Source: Blastococcus colisei
GTDB lineage: Bacteria; Actinomycetota; Actinomycetes; Mycobacteriales; Geodermatophilaceae
Direction: 5' to 3'
DNA length: 64,000 nucleotides
Assembly: GCF_006717095.1 (NCBI RefSeq)
Contig: NZ_VFQE01000002.1
Span: 744,001-808,000 of the forward strand
Part shown: piece by piece, positions 50,412 through 60,225 of the stretch
Layout: the number at the start of each line of letters is the position of its first letter
How positions within the stretch are numbered: position 1 is the stretch's first letter
Notes under the pieces: generated by a model
What the model saw: the letters and a program-made list of their open reading frames with translations, nothing else
Told to the model about the DNA's origin: nothing
The model's database searches: none
Program-made: the position numbers and the translations under genes

Positions 50412-51197
50412 CTACCGCCGCTCGAAGACAGGAGGACGACGGTCGAAGAACGCGTCGAGGGCCTCGTGGTGGTCGTGGGTGCGGAGCATCTCGAGGAACT
50501 TCTCGCGCTGCAGCGCCGTGATCTCCGCGTCGTCCAGGCCGAAGGCGCGGTTGGCGCAGGCCTTGGTGTTCTCGACGCTCAGCGGGGCCCGCGAGGCGAT
50601 CCGCTCGGCCAGCGCCGTCGCGGCCGGCAGCAGCTCCTCCGGCTCGTGCACGCCGGTGACCAGGCCCCAGCGCTCGGCGGTGTCGGCGTCGCAGGGCGCG
50701 CCGGTCAGCAGCATCTGCTTGGCCCGCCCCAGGCCGATCGTCCGCGGCAGCCGGTACCAGCTGAGGATCAGGCCCACGTTGACGCCCGCGGCGACGAACC
50801 GCGCGCCGGGCGCCGCGAGCCGGATGTCGCAGGCGAGCGCGAACTCAAGCCCTCCCCCGGCCACGTCGCCGTTGACCGCCGCGATCACCGGCACCCGCGA
50901 CTGCTCCACCTTCAGCATGGCCGCGCTCAGACTGTGGGGGTGGGCGACGTAGGCCTCGTCATCCGCACGGGTCTTCAGCGACTGCTGGAGCTTGAGGTCG
51001 CCGCCGGCGAGGAACGCCGTCCCGGCGCCGGTGATCACCACGCAGCGCACGTCGAGGTCGGCGTCCAGCGGGTCGAACGCCGCGAAGAACGCCGCGCCGA
51101 CGTCGCGGGTGAAAGCGTTGCGCGGCGGGCTGTCGACCGTCAGCACCGCCACGCCCGGCGAGGGGCGGTCGACGCGAACCAGGGGCCGTTCATTCAC
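50412..51197 (-). CDS. Crotonase-family protein lacking both catalytic glutamates
   Basis: The 261-residue protein begins at the GTG at 51195-51197. Crotonase markers are the oxyanion segment FLAGGDLKLQQSLKTRADDE and NGDVAGGGLEFALACDIRLA. At the two positions held by Glu in hydratases it reads AAPGARF and AAGVNVGL, so neither Glu is present. It is therefore unlikely to be a plain enoyl-CoA hydratase and may be an isomerase, hydrolase or decarboxylase. It overlaps the stop of the CaiB/BaiF gene by 4 bases. Confidence 0.85.
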   Translation of the reverse strand: MNERPLVRVDRPSPGVAVLTVDSPPRNAFTRDVGAAFFAAFDPLDADLDVRCVVITGAGTAFLAGGDLKLQQSLKTRADDEAYVAHPHSLSAAMLKVEQSRVPVIAAVNGDVAGGGLEFALACDIRLAAPGARFVAAGVNVGLILSWYRLPRTIGLGRAKQMLLTGAPCDADTAERWGLVTGVHEPEELLPAATALAERIASRAPLSVENTKACANRAFGLDDAEITALQREKFLEMLRTHDHHEALDAFFDRRPPVFERR

Positions 51198-52405
51198 TGC
51201 TTCTCCTCCATCGCGCGGACGCCGCCCCGGGCCAGCAGCCCGTCGATGCGGGCCCGGTCGTAGCCGAGCTCGGTCAGCAGCTCGACGGTGTGCTCTCCCT
51301 GCAGCGGAGCGGGCCGGCGGAGGCTGCCCGGCGTCCCGCTGAGCTTGGCCGGGATGCCGAGCGTGCGCACGCGGCCCTCGACCGGGTGGTCGAGCTCCTG
51401 CACCATGCCCCGGGCGAGGGTGTGCGGATCCGCGAGCGACTGGCCGTAGTCGAGGATCGGGCCGGCCGGCACGTTCGCCGCGAGCAGCGTCTCCACCCAG
51501 TCGGCCACCGTGCGGCCGGCGAGGGCCGCCTCGAGCTCGGGCACCAGCTGGTCGAGGTTGCGCAGCCGGTCGGCGTTGGCGGCGAACCGGGGGTCGTCCT
51601 CGAGGTCGGGCCGGCCGAGCACGACGCACAGGTTGCGCCAGAAGTGCGGTTTGTTGGCGGCGACGATCAGGTAGCCGTCGGCGGCGCGCAGCGCCTGGTA
51701 GGGCGCCGCGCCGCGGTGGGCCGAGCCCAGCGGGCCGGGCACCTCGCCGGTCGTCCAGACCTGGGCGCTCTCCCAGACCGACATCGACATGGCCGCGTCG
51801 AACAGCGAGGTGTCGATGTACTGGCCCTCGCCGGTGCGTCCGCGGGCGAGCAGGGCGGCCAGGATCGCGTTGGCGCCGATCAGGCCGGCGGCGAGATCGG
51901 CGACCGGGAGCCCCGCCTTCATCGGCGGCCCACCGGACGCCCCGGTGACGCTCATGATCCCCGACATCCCCTGGGCGATGATGTCGTAGCCCGGGCGCTG
52001 CGCGTACGGCCCGGTCTGCCCGAAGCCGGAGATGCTGGCGTAGACCAGCCGGGGGTTCACCGCGCGCAGGGCCTGGTGGTCGATGCCGAGCCGGGTGGTG
52101 ACGCCGGGCCGGTAGTTCTCCACGAACACGTCCGCGGTGGCCACCAGGTCCAGCAGCGCCCGGCGGCCCTCGTCGTCCTTGAGATCGACGGTGAAGCTGC
52201 GCTTGTTCCGGTTCAGGGCCAGGAAAGCGGCTCCGTCGTCGCCGGTCATCGCGAAGCCGAACCGGCGCGAGGTCCGGTCGGGGCCCTCCACCTTGATGAC
52301 GTCGGCGCCCATGTCGGCGAGCGTCATCGTGCAGTAGGGGCCGGCCAGGACCTGCGTCATGTCGAGCACGCGGTAGCCGTCGAGCGCACCTCCGGTCACC
52401 GGCAC
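51194..52405 (-). CDS. CaiB/BaiF class III CoA-transferase, operon B copy 1
   Basis: I prefer the GTG at 52405, which follows a GGAGGG, over the longer frame from 52450, whose start lies inside a conserved promoter motif. The 403-residue protein has DGYRVLDMTQVLAGPYCTMT, GADVIKVEGPDRTSRRFG, NKRSFTVDLKDDEGRRALLD, NYRPGVTTRLGIDHQALR, GFGQTGPYAQRPGYDIIAQG and LPVADLAAGLIGANAILAAL with the catalytic Asp. It is the first gene of operon B and would activate the imported carboxylate. Confidence 0.9.
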   Translation of the reverse strand: MPVTGGALDGYRVLDMTQVLAGPYCTMTLADMGADVIKVEGPDRTSRRFGFAMTGDDGAAFLALNRNKRSFTVDLKDDEGRRALLDLVATADVFVENYRPGVTTRLGIDHQALRAVNPRLVYASISGFGQTGPYAQRPGYDIIAQGMSGIMSVTGASGGPPMKAGLPVADLAAGLIGANAILAALLARGRTGEGQYIDTSLFDAAMSMSVWESAQVWTTGEVPGPLGSAHRGAAPYQALRAADGYLIVAANKPHFWRNLCVVLGRPDLEDDPRFAANADRLRNLDQLVPELEAALAGRTVADWVETLLAANVPAGPILDYGQSLADPHTLARGMVQELDHPVEGRVRTLGIPAKLSGTPGSLRRPAPLQGEHTVELLTELGYDRARIDGLLARGGVRAMEEKQ

Positions 52406-52439
52406 AGCGCTCCCTCCGTCGTCCTGGTCGTGATCCGTA

Positions 52440-52463
52440 CCATAGTCCACATCCTGTAGGAAA
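52440..52463. promoter_or_regulatory. Shared 24-base motif, copy 2
   Basis: On the plus strand it reads CCATA, GTCC, ACATCCTGTA, G, GAAA in sequence, matching the site at 42212-42235 at 21 of 24 positions. It lies between the divergent CoA-transferase (operon B) and the CMD-family gene, about 35 bases upstream of the preferred CoA-transferase start. Confidence 0.55.
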
Positions 52464-53102: not shown

Positions 53103-54248
53103 CTACGTGCGTTGGTCGAAGCGGCGGTCGAAGACGGATTCGGCGATCCGGTTGCGGAGCATCTCCAGCGAGCCGCCGGCGATCATCCAGCCGCGGGTGC
53201 GGCGCAGGCAGTACTCGACGAGGGAGTCGGTGCTGTACCCCAGCCCGCCCATGATCTGCAGGGCCTCGTTCGCGCACTCGAAGCCGGCGGTGTTGCACGC
53301 CAGCTTGGCCACCGAGGTGTCGTAGGCCGACGGCAGCCCGTCGTCGGCGTTCCTGGCCGCGCGGTAGAGCAGCAACTGCGCCGCGTCGAGCTTCACCGCC
53401 ATGTCGGCGAACTTCCACTGCAGGCCCTGGAACTCGCACAGCGGCTTGCCGAACTGCTCGCGGACCTTGGCGTGCTCACGGGCCTCGGTGAACGCGTAGC
53501 GCCCGAGGGCGAGCGCGCGGGCGGAGTTCCCGATCCGCTCGACGTTGAAGCCGGAGATCTGCTTCTTGAAGCCGCCGGGGCCCAGCAGCACGTTCTCGGC
53601 CGGGATGCGGCAGTCCTCGAAGACGAGCTCCGACCACTCCTCGCCGCTCATGTACTCGTGCTTGGCACCGAGGGTGAAGCCCGGGGTGTCCCGCTCCACC
53701 AGCACCGAGCCGATGTTGCCGGTGCCGGGGCCGAAGCGGACGTAGACCAGGTAGAGCGTCGCCTCCGGGCTGTGCGTGCCGAAGATCTTCGCGCCGTTGA
53801 GGACGTACTCGTCGCCGTCCTGGACGGCGGTGGTGCGCAGCTCGGTGACCGCGGAGCCGGCCTCGGACTCCGACATCCCCAGCGAGATGAGGTTCTCGCC
53901 CGAGAGCAGGCCCGGCAGGAAGCGCTCCTTCTGCTCGGGGGTGGCGTACTCGGCCAGCGTGCGGATCGCCCCGAAGCTGCCGGCCTGCACGATGTCGGCG
54001 GCCTTCGGCGACGCGTAGGCGACCTCCTGGATCGCGATCACCGCGTCGACGAGCGAGGCGCCCTGACCGCCGTCCTCCTCCTTGAGCGTGAGGCCGAGGA
54101 GGTTGTTCTTGGCCAGCTTCTTCGCGACGTCCCACGGATAGCCGGGGGCGTGGGCGAGCTCGACGGCGTCCTTCTGCAGTTCCGAGCGGGCGAAGTCCCG
54201 CACCGCGGAGGCGAAGGCCTCCTGGTCGTCCTCGAGACGGAATTGCAC
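53103..54248 (-). CDS. Acyl-CoA dehydrogenase family protein, 2
   Basis: The 381-residue FAD enzyme starts at a GTG after GAGGAGG. It has ISLGMSESEAGSAVTELRTT, DGDEYVLNGAKIFGTHSPEA, FEDCRIPAENVLLGPGGF, QIMGGLGYSTDSLVEYCLRR and an end with GWMIAGGSLEMLRNRIAESV. It would oxidise an acyl-CoA to an enoyl-CoA. It is separated from the TTT genes by a terminator and has its own AT-rich promoter region, so it may be controlled separately. Confidence 0.9.
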   Translation of the reverse strand: MQFRLEDDQEAFASAVRDFARSELQKDAVELAHAPGYPWDVAKKLAKNNLLGLTLKEEDGGQGASLVDAVIAIQEVAYASPKAADIVQAGSFGAIRTLAEYATPEQKERFLPGLLSGENLISLGMSESEAGSAVTELRTTAVQDGDEYVLNGAKIFGTHSPEATLYLVYVRFGPGTGNIGSVLVERDTPGFTLGAKHEYMSGEEWSELVFEDCRIPAENVLLGPGGFKKQISGFNVERIGNSARALALGRYAFTEAREHAKVREQFGKPLCEFQGLQWKFADMAVKLDAAQLLLYRAARNADDGLPSAYDTSVAKLACNTAGFECANEALQIMGGLGYSTDSLVEYCLRRTRGWMIAGGSLEMLRNRIAESVFDRRFDQRT

Positions 54249-54369: not shown

Positions 54370-55899
54370 TCAGTCCTCGACCTCGAGCTTCACCTTGTCG
54401 GCCTCCTCGCCGACGATCCGCCGGCGGACGAGATTCCAGATCCCGCCACCGAACAGCACCACGAGTGCGACGACCCACATGCCGATCGCGATGCCGCTGT
54501 CGACGAAGTACGACAGATCGCCCCGGCTCAGGAACATGCCCTCGCGGAAGTGTTTCTCGATGAACGGCCCGAGGACGAGGCCGACGATCATCGAGGCCAG
54601 GGCGAAGTCGAGTTTTCGCAGGAAGTAGCCGACCGCGCCCAGCAGGACGAGGACGTAGACGTCCAGCATGTTGAACCGCGTGCTGAAGGCGCCCAGCACG
54701 GCGATCACGATGATGCCGGGCATCAGGATGCTCTTCGGGATGCGCAGGACGCTGACCCAGAGCCCGACCATGGGCAGGTTGAGGATCAGCAGCATCACGT
54801 TCGCGACGTACATCGACGCGATGAGGCTCCAGAAGATGTCGGGACGCTGCTCGATCAGCAGCGGTCCGGGCTGGATCCCCTGGACCACCATCGCCGCCAG
54901 CATCAGGGCGAAGGTCGCCGAGAAGGGCAGCCCGAGCGACAGCAGCGGCACGAGGCTTCCCACGGCGGCGCCGTTGTTGGCGGCCTCCGGGCCGGCGACG
55001 CCCTCCACCGCACCGGTGCCCAGCTTGTCCCGGTTCTTGGAGACCGCCTTCTCCGTCCGGTAGGACGCGAAGCTGGACAGCGTCGCCGACGGCCCCGGCA
55101 GCAGGCCGAAGAAGAATCCGATCACCGATCCGCGGCCCCACGGCGCCCACGCCCGCCGCCACTCCTCCCGGCTGGGCAGCAGTTCCCGGAGCTTGACGCT
55201 CTTGACCTTGGCCGCCCGCTCGGGATCCTCGATGAGCAGGAAGATCTCGGCGATGCCGTAGAGGCCGATGGCCACGGGGACCAGCGAGAACCCGAGCGCG
55301 AGGTCCTGGATGCCGAAGGTGTACCGGAAGAACCCGGTCACCTGCTCGACCCCGACCGTGCCCAACAGGACGCCCAGCACCATCGGGAAGAACCCGCTGG
55401 CGGGGCTCCCGCCCGACACCCGGGCGAGCACCAGCAGGCCTCCGCCGGTCAGCGCCAGGTACTCGGCCGGACCGAACAGCAGCGCCACGTTGGAGAGCAG
55501 CGGCGACATCAGCGTCACCAGGATGATGGCGATGGTGCCGGCGATGAAGGACCCGACCGCCATGATCGACAGTGCCGGCCCGGCTCTGCCCTTCCGGGTC
55601 ATCTCGTACCCGTCGATGGCGGTGACCACCGACGCCGCCTCCCCGGGCATGTTCATCAGCACCGAGGTCGTCGACCCGCCGTACATGGACCCGGCGTAGA
55701 CGCCGGCGATCATGATCAGACCCGCCGCGGGCGGCAGGGTGAACGTCAGCGGCAGGATCAGCGCGGCCCCGGCCACCGGACCCAGACCCGGCAGGACGCC
55801 GATGGCGGTGCCGGCCGCCGCCCCGATGAAGGCGGCGAGCAGGAGTTCCGGGGTGAAGACGAGCTCCAGCCCGTACAGCAGCCCTTCCCAGGAGTTCAC
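54370..55899 (-). CDS. tctA: TTT large permease subunit TctA
   Basis: This 509-residue membrane protein has about 12 hydrophobic segments and the TctA hallmarks: GVLPGLGPVAGAALILPLTF, YGGSTTSVLMNMPGEAASVV, FFGLLPGPSATLSSFASY and GVAGPEAANNGAAVGSLVPL with LSLGLPFSATFALML. It is the transport channel of the tripartite tricarboxylate transporter. It starts at GTG, overlapping the tctB stop. It is the only tctA in the window, while three tctC binding proteins are present. Confidence 0.94.
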   Translation of the reverse strand: MNSWEGLLYGLELVFTPELLLAAFIGAAAGTAIGVLPGLGPVAGAALILPLTFTLPPAAGLIMIAGVYAGSMYGGSTTSVLMNMPGEAASVVTAIDGYEMTRKGRAGPALSIMAVGSFIAGTIAIILVTLMSPLLSNVALLFGPAEYLALTGGGLLVLARVSGGSPASGFFPMVLGVLLGTVGVEQVTGFFRYTFGIQDLALGFSLVPVAIGLYGIAEIFLLIEDPERAAKVKSVKLRELLPSREEWRRAWAPWGRGSVIGFFFGLLPGPSATLSSFASYRTEKAVSKNRDKLGTGAVEGVAGPEAANNGAAVGSLVPLLSLGLPFSATFALMLAAMVVQGIQPGPLLIEQRPDIFWSLIASMYVANVMLLILNLPMVGLWVSVLRIPKSILMPGIIVIAVLGAFSTRFNMLDVYVLVLLGAVGYFLRKLDFALASMIVGLVLGPFIEKHFREGMFLSRGDLSYFVDSGIAIGMWVVALVVLFGGGIWNLVRRRIVGEEADKVKLEVED

Positions 55900-56438
55900 A
55901 GGAACAGGCCCCCGATCAGGCCGGTCGGGCCGAGCAGCCCCTCGGGCAGGCGCACGCTCAGCAACTCCATGAAGAACGCGGAGATGCCGACACCGATCGC
56001 GATGCCGTAGACGACGTTGCGGATCAGGGAGCGCGTCCCGAGCAGGCTCAGCGCCACGACCATGAACAGCGACGACGCGATGTACTGCCCCAGCGTCTGG
56101 TACAGGGCGATGAAGCCGAGCAGTGCCGCCGCCATCAGCAGCACGGTCCTGCGCTTCTCCCCGCGCGGGAGGCGCATGTCGCCGGAGACCTTGTCGGTCA
56201 GCCACGCCTCGAGGAGCGTCAGGATGGAGACACCCATCATGGCGACCCCGATGACCAGCGGGAACACACCGGCGCCCGGGCGGTCCCGCGTGCCCATGGG
56301 CACGTTGCCCCAGGTGTACCAGGTGAACCAGGCACCCAGTAGGAGGCCGAGCCCGCCGACCACGAGCCGGCCCTTGCGCTTGCTGCCAAGGGCCGGACTC
56401 GTGGCGGGGGGTGCGTCGGCCGGACTCTGCCGACTCAT
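55896..56438 (-). CDS. tctB: TTT small permease subunit TctB
   Basis: The 180-residue protein has four predicted transmembrane segments, starting with VVGGLGLLLGAWFTWYTWGN and GAGVFPLVIGVAMMGVSIL, which is the TctB pattern (GPGxFP-like turn). It follows tctC by 51 bases and overlaps tctA by 4 bases. It forms the permease with TctA. Confidence 0.9.
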   Translation of the reverse strand: MSRQSPADAPPATSPALGSKRKGRLVVGGLGLLLGAWFTWYTWGNVPMGTRDRPGAGVFPLVIGVAMMGVSILTLLEAWLTDKVSGDMRLPRGEKRRTVLLMAAALLGFIALYQTLGQYIASSLFMVVALSLLGTRSLIRNVVYGIAIGVGISAFFMELLSVRLPEGLLGPTGLIGGLFL

Positions 56439-56489: not shown

Positions 56490-57509
56490 TCAGGCGTCCG
56501 AGTCCTCGATCTCGGCGAAGACCGGCCGGTAGTCGTTGATCTCCTGAGCCAGGTCGTCGAGCTGGATCGGGTCGACCACGTAGCCGTTCTCCTCGGCGAA
56601 CGCGGCGAACTCGTCGGAGGTCACGATCTCCTCCGAGACCTCGACGAGGGTGTCGCGGCACTCCTCGTCCAGGCCCGCCGGCGCGATCGTGTAGTAGGCC
56701 GCCGGCGTGATGGCACCCTCGAACTGCTCGCCGATCAGCGGCAGATCGGGGGTGGGCGCGTACTCCTCGTCGTAGAAGACGCCCAGCGGCCGCAGGTCGC
56801 CGGAGTCCACGAAGCCCTCCATCGACGGGTAGAAGGTGCCGATCGACTCGATCTCGCCGCTGACCACCGCGGTCAGGGCCTCACCGCCGCCACCGCTGAA
56901 CGGCACCCGGTTGAGCTCGATGCCCGTGCGGATCTCCAGCAGCTTGGCGTTCGTGTCCGGCGTGCCGCCGGCACCGGAGGTCGCGTAGCCGATGCCGTTG
57001 GGGTCGGCCTCCGCCGCGGCGAGGAACTCCTCCAGCGTCTGCCACGGGGTGTCGGCGTTGACCGCCAGCACCACGGGGATGTCGGCCAGCTTCACCAGCG
57101 GGGTGTAGTCGTCGGTGGTCTGGAACGGCAGGTCGGGGTTGAGGGCCGGCTGGTTGGCCAGCGCCGTGTGGTTGGACAGGCCGAGCGTGTAGCAGTCCGG
57201 CTGGGCCGTGACGATCGCGGTGGTGCCGATCGTCGCCGCGCCGCCCTCCCGGTTCTCGACGATGACGTCGACGCCGAGGATCTCCGACAGCTGGCTGGCG
57301 AACTGCCGGCCGATCGGGTCGGTCGAGCCACCGGTGCCGTACGGGATGATGTAGGTGATCGGGCGGTTGGGCTCCCAGCGGGTGCCGTCGCCACCGCTGT
57401 CCCCGCCTCCGGCGGCGGCGCCGCCCTCACTCCCGCCGTCACTTCCGCACGCCACCAGGGCCAGGGCGCTGACCGCGGCGAGCGTGCCTCGCAGAGCGTG
57501 CTTCTTCAT
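56490..57509 (-). CDS. tctC: TctC-type TTT substrate-binding lipoprotein, operon C copy
   Basis: The 339-residue protein starts at ATG after GAGGAG and has a lipoprotein signal (AAVSALALVACGSDGG), TYIIPYGTGGSTDPIGRQFA, DVIVENREGGAATIGTTAIV, PFSGGGGEALTAVVSGEIES and PLGVFYDEEYAPTPDLPLIG. It is the dedicated binding protein of the TctAB permease encoded next. A small hairpin (GATCGG at 56475-56480 with CCGATC at 56486-56491) overlaps its stop. It follows the UGSC-family gene by 94 bases. Confidence 0.93.
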   Translation of the reverse strand: MKKHALRGTLAAVSALALVACGSDGGSEGGAAAGGGDSGGDGTRWEPNRPITYIIPYGTGGSTDPIGRQFASQLSEILGVDVIVENREGGAATIGTTAIVTAQPDCYTLGLSNHTALANQPALNPDLPFQTTDDYTPLVKLADIPVVLAVNADTPWQTLEEFLAAAEADPNGIGYATSGAGGTPDTNAKLLEIRTGIELNRVPFSGGGGEALTAVVSGEIESIGTFYPSMEGFVDSGDLRPLGVFYDEEYAPTPDLPLIGEQFEGAITPAAYYTIAPAGLDEECRDTLVEVSEEIVTSDEFAAFAEENGYVVDPIQLDDLAQEINDYRPVFAEIEDSDA

Positions 57510-57603: not shown

Positions 57604-59208
57604 TCACCCACCGGCGCCCCCAGCGGTGACGTCGACGGTGACCGCCTCCGTCGTGCCGAAGCTCGGGACGAGCATCGAGTGCTTGCCGGGCCCGCCGGCC
57701 ACCATGACGAGCAGGCTCTCGGGCCCGTCGAGCATGGGGACAACGGCGTCGTCGGGCACGCCCGCGAACACGTGCGGAGCCGTGCGCCGATAGCGGTCGA
57801 GGTTGCCCTCGGAGACGCCGGCCAGGCTGACCCTGGCGCGCGGGTGGGCGTGCACGGCCTCCTGGATCCGGCGCCGGTCGTAGCCCTCGCGGGCGAGGAC
57901 CTCGGCGTGCTCCGGCCCCAGGACGAGCAGCATCTGTCCGCGCAGGTACAGGTTGTTGCTGCCCAGGGTGGCCACGGTTCCGGCGATCGTGTTGAGGATG
58001 CCGGCGGCGTCGGTGCTGCCGTGGTCGTTGATGTTGTGCGGGCCCTCACCGCCGAAGAGGGTGACCGCGCCCGACGCTCCCCCTCCCCGCTCCTCGTGGA
58101 AGGTGGCGAACGGCGAGCCGGCCGCGTTCTCGGCGATGCAGTAGGCGTACTTGCCCGGCGTCCCGTGGGTGGCCCGGTCGGTCTCCCCCGGCCGCGCCTC
58201 GCCGATGTTCTGCAGCACGAGCCGCAGTGCGCGCCCCACACCGGCGTTGGCCCGGTTGCCCTGGCCGAACACGTTCGGGCCGCTGTTGAAGCCCAGCCGC
58301 TCGACGACCGGGCCGTGCACCACCACGAGCGGGGTGACGGGGTGGGTGGTCGTGGTGAGCGCCTGCAGGTTGAGGCGCGGGTCGAGCGCGGCCTCGACCG
58401 CCGCCACGACCACCGGCGTCAGCTCCGGCGGGCAGCCGGCCATGACGGCGTTGGCCGCGATCGCACCCACCGTGGCGCCCCGGTTGGACGGGGGCACGAG
58501 CCCCACGACCGCGCCGGCGTCGCGTCCCGTGGCCGCCACCGCACGCGCCACCAGCTCCTCGGTCGGCGGCACCATCGGCAGGCCGTCGCTCCACCGTCGT
58601 CCCTCGGCGAAGCCCAGGAACTCCAGCACGTCGCCCGGGGCATCGTGCACGGCGGGCGCGGACACGGTCACCACCTCCTCCGGCGAGGACAGCAGCGCGT
58701 CGGCGACGCGGTCGACCGCAGCCGCCAGCGCGTCGTCGAGCTGCTCGGGCTCCACCCCACCGATCGGGTGCGGGATCGTGACGACCGCCATCGATTCGAT
58801 GCCTTCCTGGCGGGCGACCGCCCGCGCCAGAGGCAGGAACGAGTCGGTGGCGATCATGACCGTGGGGATTCCGCGGCGTTCGAGCTCAGCTGAGTCATGG
58901 ACACTCCACGACGTGCAGGAGCCCTAGTCACCGACGCCCACGATGGCGGCGTCGAAGTTGCGGAACCGGTCGAGCACGTCTGCCTCGAAGGGGCGCGACG
59001 AGTTCGGCTTCTCGGCCCCGACGGGCTCCTGGGCGCCGAGGCGCTCGGCCAGGTGCCGGCCCAGCACGGTGACCACGTGCTCCGCATTCGGCTTGCCGTT
59101 GTTGAGGACGGCGATCCGTGCGCCGACCAGCGATGCGGGGCGCGACGCGGTGGCCAGCCGCTCGGTGGGGGGCTCACTGCCCGACGGGTCGACGATGCGA
59201 ACGACCAT
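57604..59208 (-). CDS. UGSC-family protein with in-frame TAG at the selenocysteine position (probable UAG-encoded selenoprotein)
   Basis: Read through one TAG (58924-58926), the gene encodes 534 residues from the ATG at 59206-59208, which follows GGAGAG. Residues around the TAG are AAIVGVGD-[TAG]-GSCTSWSVHDS, the UGSC motif in which the first residue is selenocysteine or Cys in homologues; the TAG is codon 95. Both sides are coding: upstream GARIAVLNNGKPNAEHVV, downstream ELERRGIPTVMIATDSF in the same frame, then a long C-terminal region (RRWSDGLPMVPPTEEL, GFNSGPNVFGQGNRANAGVG, GGEGPHNINDHGSTDAAG). TAG would need two base changes from TGA, TGC or TGT. UAG-directed Sec insertion is known in Geodermatophilus and Blastococcus. 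TAG still ends menB, the aldehyde dehydrogenase and the GntR gene here, so decoding must be context-dependent. Function of the family is unknown; tctCBA follow. Confidence 0.8.
58885..58923 (-). promoter_or_regulatory. Candidate SECIS region directly after the TAG
   Basis: In mRNA sense the bases after TAG can form two competing small stems. One is GAGT (58906-58903) with ACTC (58895-58892) around a 7-base loop starting GUCC, 17 bases after the TAG, close to the spacing of bacterial SECIS hairpins. The other is a proximal stem with CAC (58915-58913) pairing GTG (58909-58907) and CTC pairing GAG. A palindrome CTCAGCTGAG lies at 58894-58885. No stem is strong; only the position is suggestive. 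Confidence 0.35.
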
Positions 59209-59562: not shown

Positions 59563-60225
59563 ATGACCGAGACGAACGTGACGCAGGAACAGGCGCTGAC
59601 GGGCCCTCCGCTGAGCAAGACCGAGTACGTCCTCAAGCGGCTCCGCGAGGACATCGCCAGCGGCGTCGTCGTCCCCGGCACCTCGCTCCGGCAGAGCGAG
59701 ATCGCAGCCCGCTACGGCGTCAGCGCCACCCCCGTCCGCGAGGCACTACGGCTGCTCGAGGCGGGCGGCACGATCAGCTACGCCCCGCACCGCGGCGCCA
59801 CGGTGCGCGAGCTCTCGCCACAGCGCGTCCAGGACGTCTACCTGCTGCGTGCCGAGATCGAGGCGCTGGCCACCGCCGTGGCGTGCGAGCGCATGACCGA
59901 CGAGCAGTTCAGCCGGATCGAGGCAGTCCACGAGGAGATCCGGGGATACCGGGGTGGTAGCGGGGAGGACCTCGCCGTCCTCAACCGCCGGCTGCACTTC
60001 ACGATCTACCACGCGGGCTCGGAACTGATCGCCTCGCACGCATCGAGCCTGTGGTCGCTGTTCCCGCCGCGCGTCACGATCTGGGCCGACCCCGACGCGG
60101 CGCAGGCGCTGGCCGCCGACCACGACGAGATCATCGCGGCGCTCCGCGACCGCGACGCCAAGCGGGCGCAGGACCGCGCCCGTGACCACGTGCTGCACGC
60201 GGCGAAGCTGCGCGAGCACCTCTAG
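59563..60225 (+). CDS. GntR family transcriptional regulator, FCD subfamily
   Basis: The 220-residue regulator has an N-terminal winged helix (SKTEYVLKRLREDIASGVVV, LRQSEIAARYGVSATPVREA, LRLLEAGGTISYAPHRGATV) and a C-terminal FCD ligand domain, with the metal-binding RRLHFTIYHAG and DHDEIIAALRDRDA histidines. FCD regulators bind organic acids. It lies opposite the UGSC-tctCBA operon and beside MmgE/PrpD genes, so it is the probable sensor of the carboxylate handled there. It ends in TAG. Its start has only a weak ribosome site. Confidence 0.9.
   Translation: MTETNVTQEQALTGPPLSKTEYVLKRLREDIASGVVVPGTSLRQSEIAARYGVSATPVREALRLLEAGGTISYAPHRGATVRELSPQRVQDVYLLRAEIEALATAVACERMTDEQFSRIEAVHEEIRGYRGGSGEDLAVLNRRLHFTIYHAGSELIASHASSLWSLFPPRVTIWADPDAAQALAADHDEIIAALRDRDAKRAQDRARDHVLHAAKLREHL

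Follow-up and report, generated by a model that had tools for sequence, protein, structure and literature searches.

A probable UAG-programmed selenoprotein gene of Blastococcus colisei, its SECIS hairpin and its fused DGLP domain

Selenocysteine (Sec) insertion at UAG was reported for Geodermatophilaceae in 2016-2017, UGSC proteins included, according to PMC5330540; this paper and a review (PMC10778597) cite Mukai and colleagues 2016 (doi 10.1002/anie.201511657) for UAG-programmed selenoproteins. PMC5330540 also describes a bacterial SECIS 3' of the UAG in an AhpC gene, the AhpC-UAG gene being that of B. saxobsidens. Because of this report, UAG-directed Sec in UGSC proteins of Geodermatophilaceae is counted here as already published; a sequence-only reading of the present DNA had cited such a report for Blastococcus and Geodermatophilus. 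By that account, the published UAG selenoproteins of the family include UGSC-motif proteins and formate dehydrogenases, carry UAG at the Sec site and go with a tRNA-Sec of anticodon CUA, all as described below for this genome. The UGSC-containing selenoproteins (PF24696, NF041046), as presented in PMC2398784, likewise have the motif, domain and SECIS found here but use UGA where this locus has UAG; a UGSC/Unknown_1 fusion is mentioned in the same paper. A literature search made up mostly of papers free of subscription yielded no account of the genus boundary, of a SECIS common to UAG and UGA genes, or of the DGLP partner described below, and PMC2398784 has a UGSC fusion partner left unidentified there.

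The window, a 64,000-nucleotide stretch of B. colisei DNA (G000:C2:744001-808000), comes from a 5.16 Mb genome rated 100% complete. Beyond what the sequence-only reading had noticed, we found the SECIS, the fusion and, elsewhere in the genome, a second UGSC copy and two UAG formate dehydrogenases.

The fusion gene and its in-frame UAG

The minus-strand frame 59208-57604 runs for 535 codons and closes with TGA; its only internal stop is the TAG of codon 95 (58926-58924). Translation bore out the claim of the sequence-only reading that the frame is open on either side of this single TAG with no other disruption in 535 codons, and its remark that TAG lies two bases away from each of TGA, TGC and TGT is correct. 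The TAG is preceded by VGVGD and followed by GSCTSWSVHDS, and stands as the U of the UGSC motif. Read through, the gene (57604..59208, minus strand) would encode a 534-residue protein with Sec95, consisting of a UGSC domain and a C-terminal domain of about 340 residues (57619..58668, minus strand) which we name DGLP after a motif. Translation and family alignment place the in-frame UAG (58924..58926, minus strand) at the Sec position.

The PF24696 (UGSC) domain spans residues 5-172 (58693..59196, minus strand) and crosses the TAG, read as a residue, with 162 bits compared to a cut-off of 25. NF041046 (UGSC_fam) covers residues 29-172 and scored 128.6 bits on the read-through protein (cut-off 125); the UGSC domain alone scored 124.7 bits, slightly below that cut-off. 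AlphaFold2 modelled the whole fusion with a pLDDT of 91.1 and a pTM of 0.88, and a fold search with the predicted structure of the UGSC half returned an alpha/beta fold of a common kind (best Z 11.3, 8s7v_H, 129 residues, 3.1 A).

Downstream on the minus strand lie genes for TctC, the receptor of a tripartite tricarboxylate transporter (56490..57509), TctB (55896..56438) and a putative TctA-like permease (54370..55899), which we take to be such from its sequence appearance and position and which had no NCBIfam match. These are followed, also on the minus strand, by an acyl-CoA dehydrogenase gene (53103..54248), a CaiB-type CoA-transferase gene (51194..52450; best NCBIfam match below its cut-off) and a gene for an enoyl-CoA hydratase-like protein (50412..51197; listed NCBIfam matches below their cut-offs). 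A divergent GntR/FCD regulator gene (59563..60225, plus strand) adjoins the fusion gene in four genomes. The order GntR, fusion, TctC, TctB, TctA, acyl-CoA dehydrogenase, CaiB, enoyl-CoA hydratase is identical in three further genomes (G059, G061, G062), in which the next gene, an SDR, is cut off by the edges of the stretches.

The same TAG is kept in the three orthologues from these other genomes with identical gene order. Among the four orthologues dN/dS was 0.13-0.16 in all six pairs 3' of the TAG and 0.20-0.36 5' of it. The domain that runs across the TAG, the orthologues that share it and the low downstream dN/dS rule out chance as well as a sequencing error at the codon, the latter having been raised by the sequence-only reading as a threat to its claim.

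Across the family, a profile search with NF041046 gave 95 UGSC rows in 54 of 112 Geodermatophilaceae genomes. One of these rows, which scored a weak 39.7 bits and has TCG at the column, was left out. In the remaining 94 copies, the window's own among them, a locus occurring twice is counted once and a short fragment row without the column is omitted; their Sec column held 72 TAG, 22 Cys codons (TGC or TGT) and no TGA. The window protein fits the U/C-G-S-C motif, its TAG-GSC aligning with TGC-GSC and TGA-GSC of homologues, and the alignment agrees with the earlier claim that this site of the UGSC family is occupied by Sec or Cys. Since 22 copies have Cys, two of them from the window's own genus, Blastococcus (G030, G031), Sec is not indispensable to the UGSC family.

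A SECIS hairpin behind the UAG

Counted from the T of TAG, nt 15-33 (58894..58912, minus strand) are predicted to form a SECIS hairpin with a 7 bp stem and the loop AGUGU at nt 22-26 (58905-58901). Its folding energy was -21.5 kcal/mol (z -2.7), with 2 of 200 shuffles equally good. An RGTNT loop at nt 22-26 combined with all five inner pairs was found in 72 of 72 TAG UGSC copies and at 31 of 31 TAG formate dehydrogenase sites among the matches listed, these sites coming from 32 loci (L156-L187) of which L169, a fragment, has no site. None of the 22 Cys UGSC copies had the RGTNT loop, and two of them still form all five pairs. The serine codon within the UGSC loop was AGT in every one of the 72 copies; by comparison, nine window genes use AGT for 5 of their 134 serines. 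As a separate observation, the formate dehydrogenase fragment (G079:C12:812469-814946; L169, L188) has an internal TGA and is missing the first part of the profile, through either a sequencing error or decay.

Across 47 distinct sequences, seven of seven pairs had changed on both sides and 93.6% of cells pair, with pairs 15-33 and 16-32 broken in 11 and 10 sequences, respectively. The covariation score was 0.785, compared to 0.248 (sd 0.027) for shuffled and at most 0.191 for slid alignments; such scores are inflated by kinship, yet the stem varies among UGSC subtypes and relative to the formate dehydrogenases. The counts of both-side-changed pairs and of pair types were not above those of shuffles (278 and 435 of 500).

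The SECIS stem of E. coli fdhF contains a bulged U17. At the UGA-Sec site of that gene (NC_000913.3), nt 22-26 from the T of TGA read GGTCT, identical to the UAG formate dehydrogenases, and fdhF and the window share G23, T24 (U24 of the hairpin) and T26. Unlike fdhF, the window has a UAG codon and a continuous stem without a bulge.

The pattern TAG-N18-RGTNT occurred at 50 sites genome-wide, compared to 109 for a reversed-pattern control. All seven pairs were present in 4 of 47 distinct sequences with this pattern, and these are two UGSC and two formate dehydrogenase genes: the fusion gene, a second UAG UGSC gene (C1:2356057-2356488) and two UAG formate dehydrogenase genes (C2:722309-725338, and one on C1 with its TAG at 2062232). 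Together with a covariance-model search in which 150 of 22415 first-look candidates were scored, the pattern revealed no UAG selenoprotein gene in this genome beyond these four known genes for a SECIS in this register; those genes match the model by construction, being of the kinds from which it was made. Two other loci were rejected: L261, with six of seven pairs, is antisense to a likely gene, and a large frame with a TAG near selB (L010:4752-7289) matched no family and resembles antisense noise. The formate dehydrogenase gene at C2:722309-725338 (L186) lies about 19 kb ahead of the window start.

Selenocysteine machinery and decoding of the UAG

The genome encodes a tRNA-Sec with the anticodon CUA (C1:3455422-3455513, minus strand), which reached 66.4 bits with the covariance model RF01852 (gathering score 47); the bases directly after it, GCCA, supply G73 and an encoded CCA. 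Next on the same strand stand selA (417.9 bits) and selB (280.5 bits). On the opposite side of the tRNA gene, at a distance of about 0.7 kb, is selD (387.8 bits); all three score above curated cut-offs. The genome's other six RF01852 matches (150 of 1134 candidates scored) belong to tRNAs for Ser, Tyr, Leu and Met; a tRNA-Ser among them reaches 48.2 bits compared to the gathering score of 47. The sequence-only proposal had called for just this set, a CUA tRNA-Sec with selA, selB and selD, and for an alignment of UGSC-family proteins, which puts TAG in the Sec/Cys column of 72 of 94 copies; these results, with the SECIS hairpin, support its reading of a predicted UAG-encoded selenoprotein.

RF1 is also present (471 bits), so some 94-residue product is expected. 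By a composition heuristic, TAG ends 11 of 48 coding-like window ORFs, including the first part of the fusion gene. The retention of RF1 and the ordinary TAG stops together indicate that UAG is recoded in context and not reassigned, and since the acyl-CoA dehydrogenase gene ends in TAG, UAG also serves as an ordinary stop within the gene cluster itself.

RF01852 had matches in 108 of 112 Geodermatophilaceae genomes (E up to 1e-9). Among 30 tRNA-Sec loci whose anticodons were read, 22 had CUA and 8 UCA, one of the latter being the second tRNA-Sec of a single genome (G058). A CUA-tRNA pattern was found in 97 of the 108 genomes and 9 of 12 genera. The three genera without it (g5, g6, g7) had UCA tRNAs in all seven of their genomes checked, the UGSC copies of UCA genera have Cys (G066, G072), and formate dehydrogenase matches in G071, G073 and G074 contain an internal TGA as a candidate Sec codon. 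Two incomplete genomes, G097 and G098 (72% and 80% complete), also lacked the CUA pattern. In a SelA tree of 24 rows the family's three UCA rows formed one clade; because the E. coli root branch was very long, the tree leaves a single origin of UAG decoding unsettled.

G058, a genome with a CUA tRNA-Sec, carries the additional 91-nt UCA tRNA-Sec (G058:C17:1173-1263, 81.8 bits; L045, L139) near a contig end, in a region of lower GC with ORFs that are transposase-like by sequence appearance. No selA, selB or selD match was found in the first 32 kb of the contig that holds it. Dual decoding or a mobile leftover are possible explanations.

We considered whether the UAG could be read in other ways. 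That an unseen suppressor tRNA inserts some other amino acid is very improbable, although the listing of tRNAs covered only part of the genome's set. The CUA pattern, which fixes TCTAAA and the T-loop and could be escaped by an odd tRNA, has a single match in the genome, the tRNA-Sec, and the SECIS hairpin ties the codon to SelB. Pyrrolysine is more improbable still. ARAGORN does label the CUA tRNA as tRNA-Pyl, but the covariance model identifies it as tRNA-Sec and it sits beside selA and selD; PylS (TIGR02367) exceeded its cut-off in none of 108 Geodermatophilaceae genomes, B. colisei included, which led us to reject a pyrrolysine protein. The weak PylS matches that did occur (19-28 bits) were also seen in 13 of 14 control genomes, where one exceeded the cut-off, and the codon of homologues is TGA or Cys except in two weak rows (TCG, GGC). 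The ARAGORN label tRNA-Pyl (cta) was given to the CUA tRNA-Sec genes at L001 and at the 22 CUA loci, an annotation trap. A pseudogene or error, whether through a nonsense mutation or as two ORFs with re-initiation at the ATG at 58857, was rejected as having a negligible chance, for although that ATG opens a 417-aa ORF and other genes of the window end normally in TAG, the TAG occupies the same column in 72 copies, many of them mutually orthologous, a conserved domain crosses it, dN/dS points to purifying selection on either side, and a covarying hairpin is found in TAG copies and is absent from Cys copies.

Judged from sequence, the fusion gene is very probably a UAG-programmed selenoprotein gene. 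By analogy with the established bacterial Sec pathway, SerRS would charge tRNA-Sec(CUA) with serine, and SelA with selenophosphate made by SelD would turn the Ser-tRNA into Sec-tRNA. SelB bound to the hairpin would then deliver the Sec-tRNA to the ribosome at UAG 95, where Sec would outcompete RF1 to give the 534-residue protein, and UAG elsewhere would still terminate.

The DGLP domain and its pairing with UGSC

Neither Pfam, searched to E 1, nor NCBIfam, searched to E 0.1, yielded a match to DGLP, and its best hit among PDB sequences was at chance level (E 0.64). AlphaFold2 modelled the domain alone with a pLDDT of 94.2; one Foldseek match lay below E 0.001 (7xky_A, TM 0.25) and no VIA match exceeded Z 6.4.

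Among the 94 UGSC copies, UGSC-DGLP fusions comprised four TAG genes (the window gene, L087, L089, L090) and one Cys gene (L080); in the other subtypes examined (L273, L274, L275, L277), as in most loci looked at, DGLP is a separate gene adjoining UGSC. The Cys fusion (G108:C16) is 564 aa long, has TGT in place of the Sec codon and lacks the SECIS loop. At the second UGSC locus of the B. colisei genome (L275:6589-7986), DGLP carries an N-terminal stretch that contains CPTC and has a weak thioredoxin-like match (3.3e-4, below cut-off); this gene lies directly ahead of the UAG UGSC gene.

A search of genome contigs gave at least 520 confirmed DGLP relatives, and the neighbourhoods of the best 80 loci were analysed. 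UGSC lay within the flanks in 77 of these best 80, counting L343, whose match is weak and has GGC at the column. A flanking UGSC was missing from three loci: L284 and L286 begin at a contig end, L322 does not. The Sec column of rows from the best 80 loci plus two controls held TGA 73 times, TAG 7 times, Cys 4 times and GGC once, and the seven TAG rows (five loci and the two controls) are all from Geodermatophilaceae. The hairpin was present in 65 of 73 TGA rows under a loose rule and in 59 of 73 under a strict rule, compared to none of five rows without a stop, and the best TGA stretches shared 35 of 42 bases with the window. Six loci (L281, L292, L301, L311, L317, L323) had two UGSC matches each, with TGA throughout except in L323, which had one TGA and one TGC. 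In the subtype with xGSCMPA or xGxCTPA (L281, L292, L301, L311), no hairpin in this register passed the test.

UGSC and DGLP may together make up one selenoenzyme, each supplying half of it. With much less certainty than the decoding steps, Sec95 and Cys98 may form a redox or nucleophilic centre of the UGSC domain, and UGSC with its fused DGLP may act as one enzyme on a carboxylate that would be imported by TctCBA and processed as a CoA ester. One version, which we regard as unlikely, is that UGSC-DGLP is a reductive enzyme with a Sec nucleophile, like the B subunit of glycine reductase, in carboxylate catabolism. Around the Sec, the window protein does have a weak local similarity to glycine reductase selenoprotein B (TIGR01917, residues 84-151). 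Also consistent with a reductive enzyme are the presence of UGSC beside DGLP in 77 of 80 loci, the weakly thioredoxin-like stretch at the genome's second DGLP locus, and the Tct transporter, acyl-CoA dehydrogenase and CoA-transferase genes that adjoin in four genomes. Against it, the TIGR01917 match reached 21.1 bits compared to a cut-off of 602.2, so that membership in that family was rejected, the alpha/beta fold matched by UGSC is a common one, and no known fold stands out for DGLP.

A broader proposal, which we offer tentatively, is that UGSC and DGLP are two subunits of one unrecognised selenoenzyme across many phyla, fused here, the Sec of one working on a carboxylate bound by its partner. 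Within Geodermatophilaceae, on the same proposal, the Sec codon and the tRNA anticodon would have switched in step, UGA giving way to UAG, with no loss of the SECIS hairpin; G058 may read both stops because both CUA and UCA tRNA-Sec are present.

Annotation is affected in two ways: genes of this kind are truncated at the UAG, and ARAGORN calls tRNA-Sec(CUA) tRNA-Pyl. Through its frequent pairing with DGLP, UGSC, a widespread selenoprotein whose function is not known, gains a concrete partner. For Geodermatophilaceae, the comparison presents a clean natural swap of the Sec codon, in which the protein site is unchanged and the SECIS hairpin almost so, with UAG/CUA in place of UGA/UCA, in 9 of 12 genera, the remaining three having given UCA tRNAs where sampled. 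This natural swap would therefore allow a direct test of what a change of Sec codon needs.
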